A stretch of 64,000 nt of DNA from Candidatus Eremiobacteraceae bacterium (GTDB taxonomy: Bacteria; Vulcanimicrobiota; Vulcanimicrobiia; Eremiobacterales; Eremiobacteraceae), in assembly GCA_035710745.1 (NCBI GenBank), contig DASTCX010000016.1, positions 124,001-188,000 on the forward strand, in the 5' to 3' direction. Numbering within the stretch: the stretch's first letter is position 1; each line of letters begins with the position of its first letter. This document shows, in pieces, positions 27,007 through 36,148 of the stretch. The position numbers and the translations under genes are program-made. The notes below the pieces were generated by a model. It searched no databases. It had not been told where the DNA came from and saw only the letters and a program-made list of their open reading frames with translations.

Positions 27007-27918
27007 CTAGTGCGCGTTCAACGCTAAGGACAGCTGCTGGCGCGCCCCCACGAGCTCCTGGACGGCCTTCGCCCGGAAGCCGTCGTAGTCGTGCTGATCC
27101 TTTTGAAGCATGTCGATCGCACGCTCGACGTAACGGCTCACGTACGAGATGTTCTGATCGCTGTTGAACTGCCCTCGCGTGAAGAACGTCTCGAGGTCTT
27201 CATCACCCGGGGCCGCATGGGTCGGGAGCACGCTGTCGCGGTCGCGATCTGAATCGTGTTCGAGCGCAGACGTGAGGTCGGTCTGCGCGTGTTCGATGTC
27301 GGTCACTGCCGCCGCGCGGTGACCGTGATAATCGTGCGCGTCATGTTGGAGCATGTCGACCGCGCGGTTGAGGTACAGTCGCGAGTAGCGAAGATTGTCG
27401 TCGCTCGCGCCGCCGCCCATCGTGCCGCCGTGCGCCGAGAAGTACTGCAGCGCATCGGTCAGCTGGTCGCGCGCCGCGCCGAGCGCCGCGATCGCCTTCA
27501 CCCGGAAGCCGCCGTAGTCGTGCGCGTCCTGCTGGAGCATCGTGATCGAACGCTCGACTATCGTCCGCGTGTGCTCGATATTCTCGTTGCTCGCGAACTG
27601 GCCGCGTTCGAACGCCGCGATGTCCGTGTCCTGCGGTCTGGCCGTCGTCGGGATGACCCTATCGTCCGGGTCTTTGTCGTACTGGAGCGCGGACGTCAGA
27701 TCAACCTTCGCGGTGTTCAGGTCGCCGATCGCGGCGACGCGATGTCCGCCGTAGTCGCTCTGGTCGTGCGACAGCATGTCGAGCGAACGTTCGATGTATG
27801 CTCGCGTGTAGCGCAGGTTTTGGTCGCTGGTCATATTCGTGTCGGCGGACGCCCTGCCCGTCGACGCGATCAGCGTCGCCAGCGCGGCGACGCCCACGAT
27901 TGCCGCCTTGAAGTTCAT
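27007..27918 (-). CDS. Exported helical-repeat protein with duplicated two-unit module, function unknown
   Basis: A 303-aa secreted protein from ATG 27918, preceded by GGAGG; a start at 27975 would add 19 polar residues before the signal. The signal peptide ends GRASA (about 25). The mature part contains four helical units of 48 residues at 34-81, 113-160, 175-222 and 256-303, each with N-x3-[ST]/V-R, an R-[AS]-[IV]-x-ML stretch, D-x2-DY-x-G-x-R, and a C-terminal [LT]-x-AL. Linkers 1-2 and 3-4 resemble each other (both end RGQF), so the whole protein is a duplication of a two-unit module. Conserved Asp/His/Tyr could bind metal or ligand. The family is not recognised. It is probably monocistronic, just downstream of the hspR end. 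Confidence 0.85.
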   Translation of the reverse strand: MNFKAAIVGVAALATLIASTGRASADTNMTSDQNLRYTRAYIERSLDMLSHDQSDYGGHRVAAIGDLNTAKVDLTSALQYDKDPDDRVIPTTARPQDTDIAAFERGQFASNENIEHTRTIVERSITMLQQDAHDYGGFRVKAIAALGAARDQLTDALQYFSAHGGTMGGGASDDNLRYSRLYLNRAVDMLQHDAHDYHGHRAAAVTDIEHAQTDLTSALEHDSDRDRDSVLPTHAAPGDEDLETFFTRGQFNSDQNISYVSRYVERAIDMLQKDQHDYDGFRAKAVQELVGARQQLSLALNAH

Positions 27919-27997
27919 GTCGATATCCTCCGTGCCGTATTGAAACGGATCGCGAATGGCCCTGGGGTTGCCCATGGGAGAAACTCGAATTATCTTG

Positions 27998-28016
27998 CCC
28001 GCTTAGAGGGCGGGCG
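27998..28016 (-). terminator. Hairpin downstream of hspR, weak terminator candidate
   Basis: GCCCGC and GCGGGC form a 6-bp stem with a 7-base loop, 24 bases after the hspR stop on the minus strand. The following AAGATAATT is AT-rich but lacks a U-run. Confidence 0.35.
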
Positions 28017-28039
28017 AAACAGTGGCCGGGGCGCGGGGG

Positions 28040-28303
28040 TCAGAGGCGACGCTGGAGGTCTTCGATTTCGTCGAGCAGGCGGAGCACGACGTCGACGCCC
28101 GCGAGGTTGACGCCGCAGATCGTGGTCAGGCGCTGGATGCTCGAAAGGCGGCCGATATCGTCCACGGTGTAGAAGCGGACCTCGTTTATGACCGTCGGCC
28201 GCAATAGACCCGCGCGCTCGTAACGAACGAGCGTTTCGGGCGTGACGTCGAACTGTGCAGCGACCGCGGTGATCGCGTAAAGCTCCTGCGTATTGGAATC
28301 CAT
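28040..28303 (-). CDS. hspR: HspR-like MerR-family repressor
   Basis: An 87-aa MerR-family regulator placed last in the heat-shock cluster. It has the winged helix-turn-helix (VAAQFDVTPETLVRYERAGLL), the wing EVRFYTVDDI, and the IQRLTTICGVNLAGV segment that marks HspR-like repressors, followed by a short coil. HspR proteins repress dnaK operons by binding HAIR inverted repeats, with DnaK as co-repressor. ATG 28303 overlaps the dnaJ stop by one base (TGATG), so the two are coupled. No full HAIR element (CTTGAGT-N7-ACTCAAG) was found in the window; only a half site occurs, near 31854. The C-terminus is shorter than that of actinobacterial HspR. Confidence 0.85.
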   Translation of the reverse strand: MDSNTQELYAITAVAAQFDVTPETLVRYERAGLLRPTVINEVRFYTVDDIGRLSSIQRLTTICGVNLAGVDVVLRLLDEIEDLQRRL

Positions 28304-29307
28304 CAGCGCGCCTTCGCGAGTTCGGCGAGCTCTTTGAAGAGCTCGCGCTCGCGCTCCGTCAGCATCGTCGGGACCTGCGCCGACAATCGCACGTACAAGT
28401 CGCCGGACCCGCCGCCCGGCTTCGGCATACCCTTGCCGGGAATGCGCAGCACGCGTCCGTTTTGCGATGCGCTCGGCACCTTGACGTCGATGCGGCCGGT
28501 CATCGTCGGCACGGTCACTTCGCCGCCGAGGACGAGCGTGTAGACGCTCACCGGCTGATCGACGTGCAGGTCGTCGCCGCGCCGCTCGAACGCCGGATCG
28601 GCGCCGACGCGGGCGATGAGGTAGAGGTCGCCGCTCGGCGCGCCGCCGACGCCAGGGCCGCCCTGGCCCGTGAGCCGGATCCGCTGACCGTCGCGGACGC
28701 CGGCCGGAATCGTCACGTCGAGAGTCTTGATCGTCGGAATCGTGCCGGCGCCTCGGCATTGATGACAAAGTTTGTTGTCGACGGTTCCCGTGCCGTGGCA
28801 GCGTGGACACACCGTCTCCGTCTGAAGCGAGATCGATCTGACACCGCCGGAGAACGCGTCGCGAAGCGAGAGCGGCAGCTCCGACTCGACGTCGGACCCG
28901 CGCATGCCGCGCGTCCTGCGACCGCCTGACGGCGAGCGGCCGAGCCCGCCGAAAAACGTCTGGAAGAACTCGGAGAATCCCGAATCGCCGAGGTCGTCGA
29001 AATCGAAATGGACGTCGCCGGCAGACGGTCCGTTCGGTGCCGAATATCGCGCGCCCGGCGCGGTTCGCGCGCGCTGCTGCCAGTCCGAGCCGAGCGAGTC
29101 ATAGGTCTTGCGCTTTTCGGCGTCACCTAAGACTTCGTAGGCTTCGGAGATGTCTTTGAACTTCTCTTCGGCCTGCTTCTTGCGCGTCGGGTTGACGTCC
29201 GGATGCCACTCGCGCGCGAGCTTACGATATGCGGACTTGACCTCTTTGGCGTTCGCCGTCTTCGGCACGCCGAGGATCTTGTAGTAGTCCTTGTATTGTA
29301 CCGGCAT
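28303..29307 (-). CDS. dnaJ: DnaJ co-chaperone with reduced zinc-finger domain
   Basis: J-domain co-chaperone that delivers clients to DnaK and stimulates its ATPase, 334 aa. The J-domain at 1-70 contains WHPDVNP. A Gly/Phe/Asp linker follows (about 80-125), then a cysteine region with only two CxxCxGxG motifs (CPRCHGTG and CHQCRGAG) instead of the canonical four. That can hold one zinc site instead of two. The C-terminal substrate-binding domains (LDVTIPAGVRDG, then GDLYL and GDLYV repeats) are complete. It is intermediate between DnaJ and CbpA types. It lies between grpE and hspR on the minus strand, with a repeat 5' of its start. Confidence 0.93.
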   Translation of the reverse strand: MPVQYKDYYKILGVPKTANAKEVKSAYRKLAREWHPDVNPTRKKQAEEKFKDISEAYEVLGDAEKRKTYDSLGSDWQQRARTAPGARYSAPNGPSAGDVHFDFDDLGDSGFSEFFQTFFGGLGRSPSGGRRTRGMRGSDVESELPLSLRDAFSGGVRSISLQTETVCPRCHGTGTVDNKLCHQCRGAGTIPTIKTLDVTIPAGVRDGQRIRLTGQGGPGVGGAPSGDLYLIARVGADPAFERRGDDLHVDQPVSVYTLVLGGEVTVPTMTGRIDVKVPSASQNGRVLRIPGKGMPKPGGGSGDLYVRLSAQVPTMLTERERELFKELAELAKAR

Positions 29308-29315
29308 TTATTAAG

Positions 29316-29350
29316 GCCGCGGCGGTCGAGCTAAAGCTCGACCGCTACAT
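29316..29350 (-). repeat. Intergenic palindromic repeat inside the chaperone operon
   Basis: Minus orientation, stem GAGCT/AGCTC, flanks CCGCGG and GTAGC. It fills most of the 55-base gap between grpE and dnaJ, so a transcript of the operon would carry it as a hairpin in sense orientation. Confidence 0.88.
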
Positions 29351-29362
29351 TCAAAGACGGCA

Positions 29363-29911
29363 TTAGTCGCGCTTGGAGACGATCACTTGCGCTGGGCGAA
29401 GCACGTCGTCGCCGATGCGATAGCCGCGGCGCGCTTCGTCGAGGACGGTGCTGTCGGGAACCGAGCCGTCGGGGGCGGTGCCGACCGCCTCGGAGACGGC
29501 GGGATCGAACGGTTTTCCGAGCGTCTCGATAGCCCGCACGTTTTCACTTTGGAGGACGGCCTCGAACTGCTTGACCGTCGCGAGCAGTCCATCGACGATC
29601 TGCTCCGGCGGCGTGCCGCGCGTGCGGAACTGCAGTGCGCGCTGGAGGTTGTCGAGCGCCGGCAGGAGCTTGCGCAAGACCTCGCGGCGTCCGGCATCGG
29701 AGCGCGTCTGGTAGTCTCGCTCGGTCCGCCGTTTGTAGTTGTCGAAATCGGCCAGCGCGCGCAAGTAAAGCGCGCGCTGGTCGTCCGCCTGCTTGCGAAG
29801 CGCGGCGAGCTCTTCGTCGCGCTTCCCGTCGTCGCTCGGCGCGTCGTCGATGCCGGGCATCGCAGCCCCGGACAGGGAGTCGAACTCGTCGTACGGATTC
29901 GTCTCGGCCAT
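29363..29911 (-). CDS. grpE: Nucleotide exchange factor GrpE
   Basis: Releases ADP from DnaK, 182 aa. The acidic N-terminal tail is followed by a long helix (about 30-95, with YLRALADFDNYKRRTERD), then the beta domain with GKPFDPAVSEAVG and the closing PAQVIVSK. The start ATG 29911 is 7 bases after the dnaK stop; the SD AAGGAG is formed by the last codons of dnaK, indicating translational coupling. A start at 29998 inside dnaK would add 29 arginine-rich residues and is rejected. Normal length for the family. Confidence 0.95.
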   Translation of the reverse strand: MAETNPYDEFDSLSGAAMPGIDDAPSDDGKRDEELAALRKQADDQRALYLRALADFDNYKRRTERDYQTRSDAGRREVLRKLLPALDNLQRALQFRTRGTPPEQIVDGLLATVKQFEAVLQSENVRAIETLGKPFDPAVSEAVGTAPDGSVPDSTVLDEARRGYRIGDDVLRPAQVIVSKRD

Positions 29912-29918
29912 GCCGGGC

Positions 29919-31793
<1,875 letters not shown>

Positions 31794-31824
31794 GTTATTC
31801 GATAGCTCCTAATGTGAGATTCCT

Positions 31825-31853
31825 GGGAGCGGTCGAGATTTATCTCGACCGGC
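31825..31853 (+). repeat. Intergenic palindromic repeat between htrA and dnaK
   Basis: GGGAGC flank, stem GGTCGAGAT/ATCTCGACC, right flank shortened to GGCC. It is plus-oriented, so antisense to the chaperone operon. It could partially terminate or stabilise a htrA-dnaK transcript. Confidence 0.85.
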
Positions 31854-31859
31854 CTTGAG

Positions 31860-33059
31860 TTAACCTTGTTGTACGCTGAACTGGTTCTCGTCGCCCAGCG
31901 TGACGTCGACGGGCTGCAAGTTGCCCTGGCGCCAGACGAGCAGCGAGACCTTCTGTCCGACTTTCATGTTCTTGACGGCGTTCGTCACGTCTTCGGGCTT
32001 GTTGACGGCCTGATGGTTCAGCTGGACGATGACATCGCCCGCTTGGAGGCCGACCTGATCGGCCGGGCTTCCAGGAACGACGTTGCCGACGACGACGCCG
32101 TTCTTGCCGCCATAGTTGAGGTAGTTGCGGATCTGCGTCGTCAGCGCGCCGAGCTGCACGCCGATGAACGGATGCGTTTTCGCGACATACGTTCCGCTCT
32201 GGATCTCCGCGAGGATCGGCTGTGCGTTCGACATCGGTATCGCGAAGCCGATGTTCTGCGCGCCGGCATCGACGACGGCGTTGATGCCGACGACGTGGCC
32301 CGTATCATCGATGAGCGGGCCGCCGGAATTGCCGGGGTTGATCGGCGTCGTTATCTGGATCATGTCAGGATAGTGGATCGCCGGGAGGCCTTGGCCGCTG
32401 GCGGTGATGCCGGTGCGATGGACGCTCGCGACGATGCCGAAGCTGACGGAGTTCTGAAGTTCGATCGGCTCGCCGATCGCGAGGACGAACTGGCCCTGCT
32501 GGAGCTGCTTCGAGTCGCCGATCGGCAGCGCCGGCGGCAGATCATTGCCGTGGATCTTCAAGATCGCGAGGTCGTCTTGGATGTCGGTGCCGACGACTTG
32601 CGCATCGACTTTGCGGCCGCTCGCCAGCAGCACTTCGACTTTGTCGGCTTTGAACACGACGTGGCCGTTCGTAGCGACGTACGCCGTGTCGCCGTCGCGC
32701 TTGATGACGAAGCCGGAACCGGAGCCCTGCTGCGTGTACGGCTGGCTCTCCGGCATCTGATTGCCGAAGAACTGGCGGAAGAACGGGTCGTTCATGAACG
32801 GGAACTGCTGCACGCCGTGCACCGTCGACTTGATGAGGACGACGGATGGCTCTGCGTTCTTCACCGCAGCGATGATGCGCTGTTCGAGGTCGGGATCGCC
32901 GACATTGTGGATCGCCGACGCCGAAGCCGTATACGACTGATCGGTCGTGCTGTTGTTGAGTATCTTGCCAGGCACGCAAGCGACGATGACCGCGCCGACG
33001 AGCACGCCGAGAAGGCCGACGAGGAGAAATCCGATTGAGGTGCGGGTTGAGGGTTGCAT
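31860..33059 (-). CDS. HtrA/DegP-family serine protease
   Basis: Periplasmic, membrane-anchored quality-control protease, 399 aa. A membrane segment at about 8-29 is followed by the trypsin-like domain with catalytic triad H133 (ATNGHVV), D163 (DIQDDLAIL) and S245 (NPGNSGGP). A single C-terminal PDZ domain (about 298-390, VVGNVVPGSPADQVGLQAGDV) makes it a DegS/HtrA-type with one PDZ. Start ATG 33059 has AGGAG 11 bases upstream. It is the first gene behind a heat-shock promoter overlapped by a CIRCE operator at 33250-33276, with a leader of about 190 bases. Association with dnaK-grpE-dnaJ-hspR links envelope and cytosolic proteostasis. Confidence 0.95.
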   Translation of the reverse strand: MQPSTRTSIGFLLVGLLGVLVGAVIVACVPGKILNNSTTDQSYTASASAIHNVGDPDLEQRIIAAVKNAEPSVVLIKSTVHGVQQFPFMNDPFFRQFFGNQMPESQPYTQQGSGSGFVIKRDGDTAYVATNGHVVFKADKVEVLLASGRKVDAQVVGTDIQDDLAILKIHGNDLPPALPIGDSKQLQQGQFVLAIGEPIELQNSVSFGIVASVHRTGITASGQGLPAIHYPDMIQITTPINPGNSGGPLIDDTGHVVGINAVVDAGAQNIGFAIPMSNAQPILAEIQSGTYVAKTHPFIGVQLGALTTQIRNYLNYGGKNGVVVGNVVPGSPADQVGLQAGDVIVQLNHQAVNKPEDVTNAVKNMKVGQKVSLLVWRQGNLQPVDVTLGDENQFSVQQG

Positions 33060-33249
33060 TGCGGGTATCTACTCCTGACGCGTGTTGGGCCGCGCGGTCG
33101 CCGGCTCAGGAAGCCGGTGCCGTGGCAGCCGAGGCCCTTATGACTTGTACCTATCTTTGGAGGCGAAGAAAGGTTCCGCTTCCGGGTGGCATACCAATTC
33201 TCGTTCCGCGGAACGGGATAGCGACGGGCTAGGCCGCGGGGACGTTCGA

Positions 33250-33276
33250 TTAGCACTATAGCATTGAGAGTGCTAA
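33250..33276 (-). promoter_or_regulatory. CIRCE operator (HrcA-binding inverted repeat)
   Basis: TTAGCACTA-N9-GAGTGCTAA: nine-base arms separated by exactly nine bases, matching the CIRCE consensus TTAGCACTC-N9-GAGTGCTAA with one mismatch. It covers the spacer and -10 box of the htrA promoter, the arrangement expected for repression by HrcA. hrcA itself is not in this window. Confidence 0.93.
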
Positions 33277-33283
33277 CCGTCAA
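33255..33283 (-). promoter_or_regulatory. Sigma-70-type promoter for htrA (and probably the chaperone cluster)
   Basis: On the minus strand: TTGACG (33283-33278), a 17-base spacer, TATAGT (33260-33255). Both boxes are one to two changes from consensus and spacing is optimal. Transcription would start near 33248, giving an htrA leader of about 190 bases. Confidence 0.88.
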
Positions 33284-33372
33284 GAAGCGGGCCGATCCGA
33301 TTCACGTTAAGGGTCGCACAGGGGTTCCGTAGTACAGGAGCCTTGTTCGCTGCGCAAAACTCTCTTTAGGCG

Positions 33373-33388
33373 TGTGACATCCGTCACA
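33373..33388. promoter_or_regulatory. CRP-type palindrome upstream of receptor 3
   Basis: TGTGA-CATCCG-TCACA is an exact match to the half-site core and spacing recognised by CRP/CRP-family regulators, 60 bases before the receptor 3 start codon. No CRP-family gene is in the window, so the binding protein is inferred only from the site. Confidence 0.55.
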
Positions 33389-33448
33389 TGTCGCAGTTGG
33401 CATTGGGGCGTCCCAGGCGATGACCCGGGGGCCCGAATTGGAGGAGGC

Positions 33449-36148
33449 ATGTTCACTAAGATCCTTCGCGGCGGCTTAGGCGCAGCGGTGGTTCTCGCAC
33501 TTGTGCTCTGCCAGGAAAATTTGGCACTGGCGGGTTCTACAGGTCAGATCACCGGCCGGGTCGTCGACGCGAGCACGAACGCGCCGATCGCAGGCGCGAA
33601 CGTCACCGCCGTATCTCCGACGGGGAGCTACAAAGCGGTGACGAGCTCAAACGGCTACTATGCGATGGTCAACATCTATCCTGACACCTATCGCGTCAGC
33701 GTGACCGCCGAGGGCTACACGTCGGCGCTTTCGGACGGCAACACAGTCAACCAGGGCTCGACGACCGCCGTCGACTTCACCTTGACGAAGTCAGCGACCG
33801 TGCTCGGTCACGTGACCGTTCGCGGCGTGACGACGGTCGTGCAGCCGAGCGTTCCGGCCGACCAGTACGTTCTGACGGCGTCGGCCGCTGATGCGACCAA
33901 TGGGTCGGGCGGGTCGATGTCGCTCTATCAGACGCCCGGCATCATCGCGACCCTTCCCGGCGTGACGCTCGACGCGGGCGGATACTCGCATATCCGGGGA
34001 AGCCGCTTCGACGAAGTCGGCTACGAGTACGACGGCTTGACGACGGTTGAGCCGATCACCGGGACTTTCTCGACGAACCTCGTCGAAGATGGAGCATCGC
34101 GGCTTCAAGTCTCGACAGGCGGGTATTCGGCGGACGGCGGCAGCGCGATCTCCGGCGTCGTCAACACGGTTGTCGGCGTCGGAACGTATCCGCCGCGCGG
34201 CAGCATTACAGCGCTCATTCAAGCGCCGACGTACTACCACGGCTTGAACTTCGACTACGGAAGCGCGACGCCCGACGGCCGCTTTTCGTGGTACGTCGCG
34301 GCGGTCACATGGAACTCCGGTTACGATTGGGGCAACCGCGGCACGTTCTACCCGAGCGTTGAGAACTTCGAGTCGGCGGCCGGCGTCGGCGATCTCGGCA
34401 GCGTCGTGCCGAGCCGCGACCAAGTCGTCAACCTCCACTACAAGTTCGGTCAGAATATGGGCTGGGATCTTCAGTATCTCGGCACGACAGGCATCGAGCA
34501 CTACAACAACATCATATTGCCCGCGTTCTTTCCGAGCAGTAATCCGCTCGACGGGCCGCCCGCAGTGAACCCGCAGCCGTTCAACGGTTACTGCGATAAT
34601 GGATTCCCGCTGTACCCGGGCCAGACGACATGCAACGAGATACCCCCGCCGGGCTCGACCGAGCACGACGACCAGGGTTACTTCATCGACAAGGTCCAGC
34701 TGTCGCACAACTTCTCATCGAACTCGTCGCTTTCGGTCCACTACGCTCGAGTCGGATCGTACGTGACGTTCTGGTTCCCGTTCGGCGGCGGCTCGTTCGA
34801 CGATTTGTACGAGAACAGGCATTCGGACCAGCAAGAGTTCGAGGGCGACTACACGATCCAGGCCGGATCGGAGCATCTGCTCAAACTCGGCGCCGACCAT
34901 ATCTACAGCACCAACTTCTTGTATGCGCTCTTCGCGTCGGTCCCCGTCGGGAGCGGATTGTTCGGCGAGGGTGAAGTGGTCCCGACGAATAACGGCGACA
35001 ACTCGTACTGGATTGCCGACACGTTCAAGCCGGGCGATAGGCTGACGGTCGACATCAGCGGGCGGCGCGACACGCGGACGTTCTATAGGGTCGCCGGACC
35101 CACGTTCACGGACGCGGCTAACCAGCTGCGCGGCGGCATCGCCTACCAGCTCGGTCAGAACACCGTGCTCCGCGCGACGGACGGCAACTTCGCAAGCCTG
35201 CCGAACATGTCGCGCGCAGAGCGGATCTTCACGTTCGCTCCGCCGTTCTTCAACATCAACCAGCCGACGATTACCCGCGAAGCACAGCCGGACGTGCCCG
35301 AGAGCCACTCGTACGATTTCCAGATCGAGCAGGACCTCGGCCATGGCCTCGCGTTCAAGGGCGGACCGTTCTGGCGGCGCACCGACAACCTCATCCTGAC
35401 GTTCCGACAGCCGAATCAGCCGGCTTCGCTGCCGCAAGCGGTTGGCCCGTACGACGTCAACGGGATTGAGACGGAGCTTCAGTTCGACCACGCCGGCGAC
35501 TTCAGCGGCTACCTCAACTACACGCACACGAGGGCGCTCGCTGCGGTGACGGGCGACTTCGAGCCGTCGTTGCCGCCGGGAGCGCAGTTCTTCAAGGCGT
35601 TGTTCCCGGCGTCGTTTGTGCCGCCGAATGCCGCGAATCTCGTCCTCGAGTGGAAGCATGGGAAATGGGATATCAACCCCGTGATCGACTACTCGTCGGG
35701 ATTCCCATACGGCACGGGTCTATTCACCTACAACAACTTCAACTGCCCGACCGGATCAGGCGTGGGCAACCCGAACGCGCCGTGCGGCGCGATCGTGAAG
35801 AATCCGAACGCTTACATCGACACCGACTCGTCTACCGGTCTGTGCGATGGTCCGACGTTCTGCCACAAGCCAATCGACCCGGGCGAGAGCCTGTTTGCCG
35901 ATGGCCGCGTCTGCTGCACGTCGCTCGTCGCCAACCTCAACATATACTACAACGTAAACCCCCTGACGACGGTCGGCGTCCAGATAGAGAACCTAAACCG
36001 CGACTACCGTCCGACCGCGCTCGAGCAAAACTTCACGTTCTTCTCAGGCGGCAACAACGGCTATCTCAACTACGGAACCGATCCGTACTTCGCCAGCGCG
36101 ATGAACGGGTCCGAGGAGTTCCTATTCACGGTCGTCCAGAAGATCTGA
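33449..36148 (+). CDS. TonB-dependent receptor with carboxypeptidase-regulatory-like domain (receptor 3)
   Basis: An 899-aa outer-membrane receptor from ATG 33449, directly after GGAGGAGG. An upstream GTG (33374) would add 25 non-hydrophobic residues. The signal peptide ends ENLALA, then comes the regulatory-like beta-sandwich with IYPDTYRVSVTAEGY, a plug with YSHIRGSRFDEVGYEYDG, and a barrel about 200-300 residues shorter than in receptors 1 and 2. The C-terminus is FTVVQKI, again Lys-Ile. Cysteine pairs occur in extracellular-type loops (CDNGFPLYPGQTTC; RVCC). A CRP-type palindrome lies in the leader or promoter and a strong terminator follows. Ligand unknown. Confidence 0.92.
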   Translation: MFTKILRGGLGAAVVLALVLCQENLALAGSTGQITGRVVDASTNAPIAGANVTAVSPTGSYKAVTSSNGYYAMVNIYPDTYRVSVTAEGYTSALSDGNTVNQGSTTAVDFTLTKSATVLGHVTVRGVTTVVQPSVPADQYVLTASAADATNGSGGSMSLYQTPGIIATLPGVTLDAGGYSHIRGSRFDEVGYEYDGLTTVEPITGTFSTNLVEDGASRLQVSTGGYSADGGSAISGVVNTVVGVGTYPPRGSITALIQAPTYYHGLNFDYGSATPDGRFSWYVAAVTWNSGYDWGNRGTFYPSVENFESAAGVGDLGSVVPSRDQVVNLHYKFGQNMGWDLQYLGTTGIEHYNNIILPAFFPSSNPLDGPPAVNPQPFNGYCDNGFPLYPGQTTCNEIPPPGSTEHDDQGYFIDKVQLSHNFSSNSSLSVHYARVGSYVTFWFPFGGGSFDDLYENRHSDQQEFEGDYTIQAGSEHLLKLGADHIYSTNFLYALFASVPVGSGLFGEGEVVPTNNGDNSYWIADTFKPGDRLTVDISGRRDTRTFYRVAGPTFTDAANQLRGGIAYQLGQNTVLRATDGNFASLPNMSRAERIFTFAPPFFNINQPTITREAQPDVPESHSYDFQIEQDLGHGLAFKGGPFWRRTDNLILTFRQPNQPASLPQAVGPYDVNGIETELQFDHAGDFSGYLNYTHTRALAAVTGDFEPSLPPGAQFFKALFPASFVPPNAANLVLEWKHGKWDINPVIDYSSGFPYGTGLFTYNNFNCPTGSGVGNPNAPCGAIVKNPNAYIDTDSSTGLCDGPTFCHKPIDPGESLFADGRVCCTSLVANLNIYYNVNPLTTVGVQIENLNRDYRPTALEQNFTFFSGGNNGYLNYGTDPYFASAMNGSEEFLFTVVQKI

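Follow-up and report, generated by a model that had tools for sequence, protein, structure and literature searches.

A predicted HrcA operator interlocked with the promoter of an htrA-dnaK-grpE-dnaJ-hspR-like operon in Eremiobacteraceae

Control of dnaK operons by HrcA acting at its CIRCE operator is textbook biology, and a switch that responds to GroEL and heat has its precedents in B. subtilis and Campylobacter. In B. subtilis, and in Geobacter with its hrcA-grpE-dnaK-dnaJ operon (PMC545781), a CIRCE with 9-bp spacing lies at the promoter of the operon carrying grpE, dnaK and dnaJ, and hrcA and groESL belong to the same regulon. Actinobacteria divide the work differently: HspR and its HAIR operator control dnaK within a dnaK-grpE-dnaJ-hspR operon (Streptomyces; Bifidobacterium, PMC9004370), CIRCE controls groES/groEL, and hrcA sits elsewhere, beside a second dnaJ. 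Campylobacter and Helicobacter encode both HspR and HrcA and have dual promoters with CIRCE over the core promoter, where Campylobacter HrcA binds (PMC7464140).

The locus described here resembles each of these systems in part. It lies in a 64-kb stretch of DNA, hereafter the window, from a bacterium of the Eremiobacteraceae, a family in the class now named Vulcanimicrobiia and the phylum Vulcanimicrobiota; the nearest public contig belongs to a 'Candidatus Eremiobacteria' MAG with 96% identity in HtrA. The 9-bp CIRCE spacing, the position at a dnaK operon promoter and a regulon that includes hrcA and groESL are shared with B. subtilis and Geobacter, but here hrcA lies outside the operon, htrA comes first, an hspR-like gene comes last and CIRCE overlaps the promoter spacer and -10. 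The gene order from dnaK onward is that of the actinobacterial operon, as is the placement of hrcA with a second dnaJ elsewhere, except that htrA has been added in front and CIRCE serves dnaK, with HAIR not found. CIRCE over the core promoter, and an hspR-like gene and hrcA in one genome, recall Campylobacter and Helicobacter, from whose HrcA-HspR promoters this one differs in that no HAIR-like site was detected.

The operator, its promoter and its repressor

A CIRCE operator and a sigma70-type promoter are interlocked upstream of htrA. The CIRCE consensus TTAGCACTC-N9-GAGTGCTAA, allowing up to three mismatches, matches the window once, at 33250-33276, where TTAGCACTA-N9-GAGTGCTAA departs from it at a single position; 100 shuffled windows gave no match. 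The promoter, at 33255-33283 on the minus strand, consists of a -35 TTGACG (33283-33278), a 17-nt spacer and a -10 TATAGT (33260-33255). Its hexamers agree with consensus at 10 of 12 positions, TG precedes the -10, and a promoter scan found no other sigma70-like site on the minus strand within 27900-33500. The lone CIRCE deviation falls on the innermost base of an arm, and that same base completes the -10 hexamer. The initial annotation had proposed both elements at these coordinates, with the operator lying across the spacer and -10 of a minus-strand TTGACG-N17-TATAGT; the sequence bears out the position, the geometry and the CIRCE itself, for which no match was expected by chance.

The same genome encodes HrcA and carries two further CIRCEs. 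Across 2.97 Mb in 41 contigs, matches with three or fewer mismatches occur at three places only, and a reversed-pattern control gave none. A genome lacking hrcA would have spoken against the operator, as the initial annotation recognised; that objection falls away, because a clear HrcA is encoded on another contig (C17:1196-2338; 313 bits against the TIGR00331 cut-off of 197). The CIRCE there ends at the hrcA start codon, and a second dnaJ follows hrcA. The third CIRCE, C4:54538-54564, precedes groES-groEL directly downstream of a TTGTCA-N17-TATAAT promoter. With HrcA, the operators at htrA-dnaK, hrcA-dnaJ and groESL make up what is, as predicted from their sequences, a complete classical HrcA regulon.

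Both elements are conserved throughout the window's family. An htrA orthologue occurs in 13 of the 14 family genomes sampled, the window's included (58-100% identity), and adjoins dnaK except at contig ends (G066, G073). All 13 loci keep the promoter and a CIRCE, the latter 160-222 bp upstream of the htrA start. Mean pairwise identity over the 34-bp promoter/operator is 87% among them, against only 27-29% for the 34 bp on either side. A chance resemblance to CIRCE can be practically discounted, since none is expected and the site was kept in 13 of 13 loci while its flanks diverged. The 33250-33276 site is a real and very probably functional CIRCE operator. One family member, G102, gave no htrA-dnaK locus and no second CIRCE, probably owing to a fragmentary assembly. 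Another, G073, carries tandem CIRCE/promoter copies before htrA (L123, 1199-1225 and 1288-1314, 89 bp apart), apparently a recent duplication.

Conservation also bears on which gene the operator serves. CIRCE is palindromic and stands in an intergenic region shared with a divergent outer-membrane receptor-like gene (33449 onward), so that gene might be its target. The conserved promoter faces htrA, however, and the divergent neighbour varies, with a related gene in some relatives only, whereas the pairing of CIRCE and htrA is constant. Service to the divergent gene is accordingly very improbable.

The sequence between the promoter and htrA shows no such conservation. Transcription is predicted to start near 33248, giving an untranslated minus-strand leader of about 189 nt (33060-33248) ahead of the htrA ATG at 33059. 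This leader is neither conserved nor unusually structured, and a thermosensor within it is unsupported, its fold being no stronger than that of shuffles (z 0.40). A 14-bp palindrome in the leader, CGTTCCGCGGAACG (33202-33215), was rejected as a second operator; it is incomplete even in the sister species. Separately, a perfect CRP/FNR-like palindrome, TGTGACATCCGTCACA (33373-33388), lies upstream of the divergent gene at 33449, whose product has carboxypeptidase-regulatory-domain and receptor-like character.

A dnaK operon with htrA in front

The promoter is followed on the minus strand by five closely spaced genes. htrA (31860-33059) encodes a trypsin-like serine protease with one PDZ domain. 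Behind it come dnaK, for Hsp70 (29919-31793), grpE (29363-29911), a gene for a J-protein of the dnaJ/cbpA type whose zinc-finger region is shortened (28303-29307) and a gene for an HspR-like regulator of the MerR family (28040-28303). Gaps of 66, 7 and 55 nt separate the first four, and the start of the fifth overlaps the dnaJ stop. No terminator-like site was found on the minus strand within the cluster, and the consensus scan of 27900-33500 matched no second minus-strand promoter between htrA and the hspR-like gene. Because the gaps are short and neither a terminator-like site nor another promoter match intervenes, the 'htrA promoter' is to be read as the promoter of the dnaK operon, and the anatomy of the cluster points to one apparent transcription unit.

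This anatomy changes what is unusual about the site. The chaperone cluster noted behind htrA in the initial annotation is present, but it is a complete dnaK operon, which that annotation had left out; its portrayal of htrA as an unusual, direct and separate HrcA target is not supported, with dnaK immediately behind and grpE, dnaJ and the hspR-like gene following. The novelty of htrA control shrinks because dnaK is the operon's core and dnaK operons are classical targets of HrcA. The site is a lineage-specific variant of classical control, not a new kind of control. What is new is the composition of the operon, with a protease first and an HspR-like gene last, and its lineage-specific control module.

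The htrA-dnaK gap is where a different reading would have to find its promoter. If dnaK were transcribed separately from this gap, as it seemingly is in sister families that have a dnaK promoter and leader of their own there, htrA would be the sole HrcA target in the cluster. The gap does contain a perfect hairpin (31830-31851, minus strand, z -2.9), and its 66 bp could hide a promoter that the consensus scan missed. Yet it holds no promoter match, the hairpin lacks a T-tract, and members of the window's family have a gap reduced to about 40-160 bp and are missing the leader element of the sister families. Separate transcription would also make dnaK the sole major chaperone operon without recognisable heat-shock control, and we consider it improbable. 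Strong hairpins unrelated in sequence occur in the gap of most relatives, not all; the one at 31830-31851 may act in the processing or stability of the mRNA. An Rfam scan of the window and its relatives returned nothing at gathering scores.

We have high confidence in an HrcA-repressed promoter that drives htrA-dnaK-grpE-dnaJ-hspR-like as a predicted heat-shock operon of five genes. When it occupies CIRCE, HrcA would cover the spacer and -10 of a strong sigma70-type promoter and so exclude RNA polymerase. Heat, or GroEL occupied with unfolded protein, would inactivate HrcA and allow the promoter to fire, and an extracytoplasmic protease and the cytosolic Hsp70 machine would then both be made from a single transcript. 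HrcA would likewise control its own hrcA-dnaJ operon and groESL.

The HspR-like gene

The last gene of the operon raises the prospect of a second regulator. Among models for MerR-type proteins, those for HspR come closest to its product, at 61.9 bits for NF047375, below the curated cut-off of 105. The protein carries the Pfam MerR_2 domain and is encoded directly after a J-protein, both of which fit a CbpA-CbpM pair; no CbpM model was among its NCBIfam matches, and no sequence relative was found among solved structures. It may add feedback or partner the J-protein.

Gene content and operator sequence point in different directions on feedback. Within the window's family, 10 of the 11 relatives read have an hspR-like gene at the end of the operon; the exception, G066, shows none in the sequence covered. 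The operon ends without one in all 10 sister-family loci, and the gene therefore occurs together with CIRCE. This distribution would suit dual repression in the style of Campylobacter and Helicobacter, by HrcA at CIRCE and by feedback from the HspR-like protein, as would the cooperation of HspR and HrcA at shared C. jejuni promoters (PMC7464140). Against it, none of the 13 loci has a match to the HAIR operator CTTGAGT-N7-ACTCAAG with fewer than four mismatches around the promoter, and there is none before dnaK. Genome-wide HAIR matches are fewer than those of the reversed-pattern control, and a two-mismatch match, at L008, was dismissed as lying inside an unrelated coding region. Upstream conservation is limited to the promoter and CIRCE, and the protein falls under the HspR model cut-off. 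Since no HAIR operator was found, we do not claim feedback by the HspR-like protein; dual repression is conceivable but doubtful, and repression by HrcA at CIRCE is the reading that we carry forward.

The same operon in sister families

The operon is more widespread than its CIRCE: genomes across the class retain the order htrA-dnaK-grpE-dnaJ, including those with no CIRCE there, and htrA-dnaK adjacency is common to the class, whereas CIRCE and the hspR-like gene co-occur at this operon in one family. A survey of 61 genomes of the class found HrcA in 58. No CIRCE was found near htrA or dnaK in two sister families, f2 and f3. A literature search of partial coverage found no report of CIRCE at an htrA-dnaK operon, and 63 HtrA-encoding loci from other phyla, which are not a fair sample, contained no CIRCE at up to three mismatches.

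HrcA appears to have other targets in these relatives. In the f2 and f3 genomes examined, CIRCEs stand at hrcA-dnaJ, groESL, clpB and hsp20, with lon behind hsp20 in f3; those at clpB (L193, L197), hsp20-lon (L106, L108) and hsp20 (L199, L201, L202) all lie at position 1501 of their loci. Elsewhere, clpB and hsp20(-lon) are often controlled by HspR. The CIRCEs at these genes indicate a wide HrcA regulon in the class. In more distant families of the phylum, the CIRCEs looked at sit at groESL.

In place of an operator, the sister families have a candidate leader RNA before dnaK. All 37 f2/f3 leaders examined between htrA and dnaK contain TAAGCGGCAAGGC or a close variant, then a variable stretch, then TGGTCC or TGGTGC before dnaK. 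The element reads TAAGCGGCAAGGC ... AGCTGGTCC ... TCGG, about 40-220 nt before the dnaK ATG (L156, L157, L163, L171-L190). Sequences flanking the blocks pair with each other (native mean -15.4 kcal/mol; 0 of 2000 permutations as good, 19 genera), and the outer stem covaries. The 13-nt leader block was located in 80 of 117 genomes of the class, mostly as a single copy at the dnaK locus; it is essentially absent from the window's family, with one match in 14 genomes, away from dnaK. The combined pattern is confined to f2 and f3, one isolated match aside. Rfam assigned these leaders to no family at gathering score, and the weak E-value matches look like chance; the enterobacterial 'dnaK motif', which overlaps the dnaK-satP promoter region, comes from unrelated bacteria (PMC11109978). 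By eye, the alignment has a GGAAC-N15/16-GTATNAT-like (ECF-type) promoter ahead of most f2 leaders, which suggests an alternative sigma factor.

We lean towards the view that the htrA-dnaK-grpE-dnaJ operon was rewired within the class. Most lineages would express dnaK through a structured leader RNA that belongs to no named class, probably from an alternative-sigma promoter; in the window's family, an HrcA/CIRCE promoter would precede htrA and the operon would end with an HspR-like gene, bringing an extracytoplasmic protease into the HrcA regulon. The comparison of the same operon genes under a leader RNA and under a protein operator offers a testable case of regulatory rewiring, and it also exposes a candidate new dnaK leader RNA. 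If our reading is right, one HrcA switch would govern both HtrA and the cytosolic Hsp70 machine in a phylum that is mostly uncultured, and a single signal would couple protein quality control in the envelope with that in the cytoplasm.
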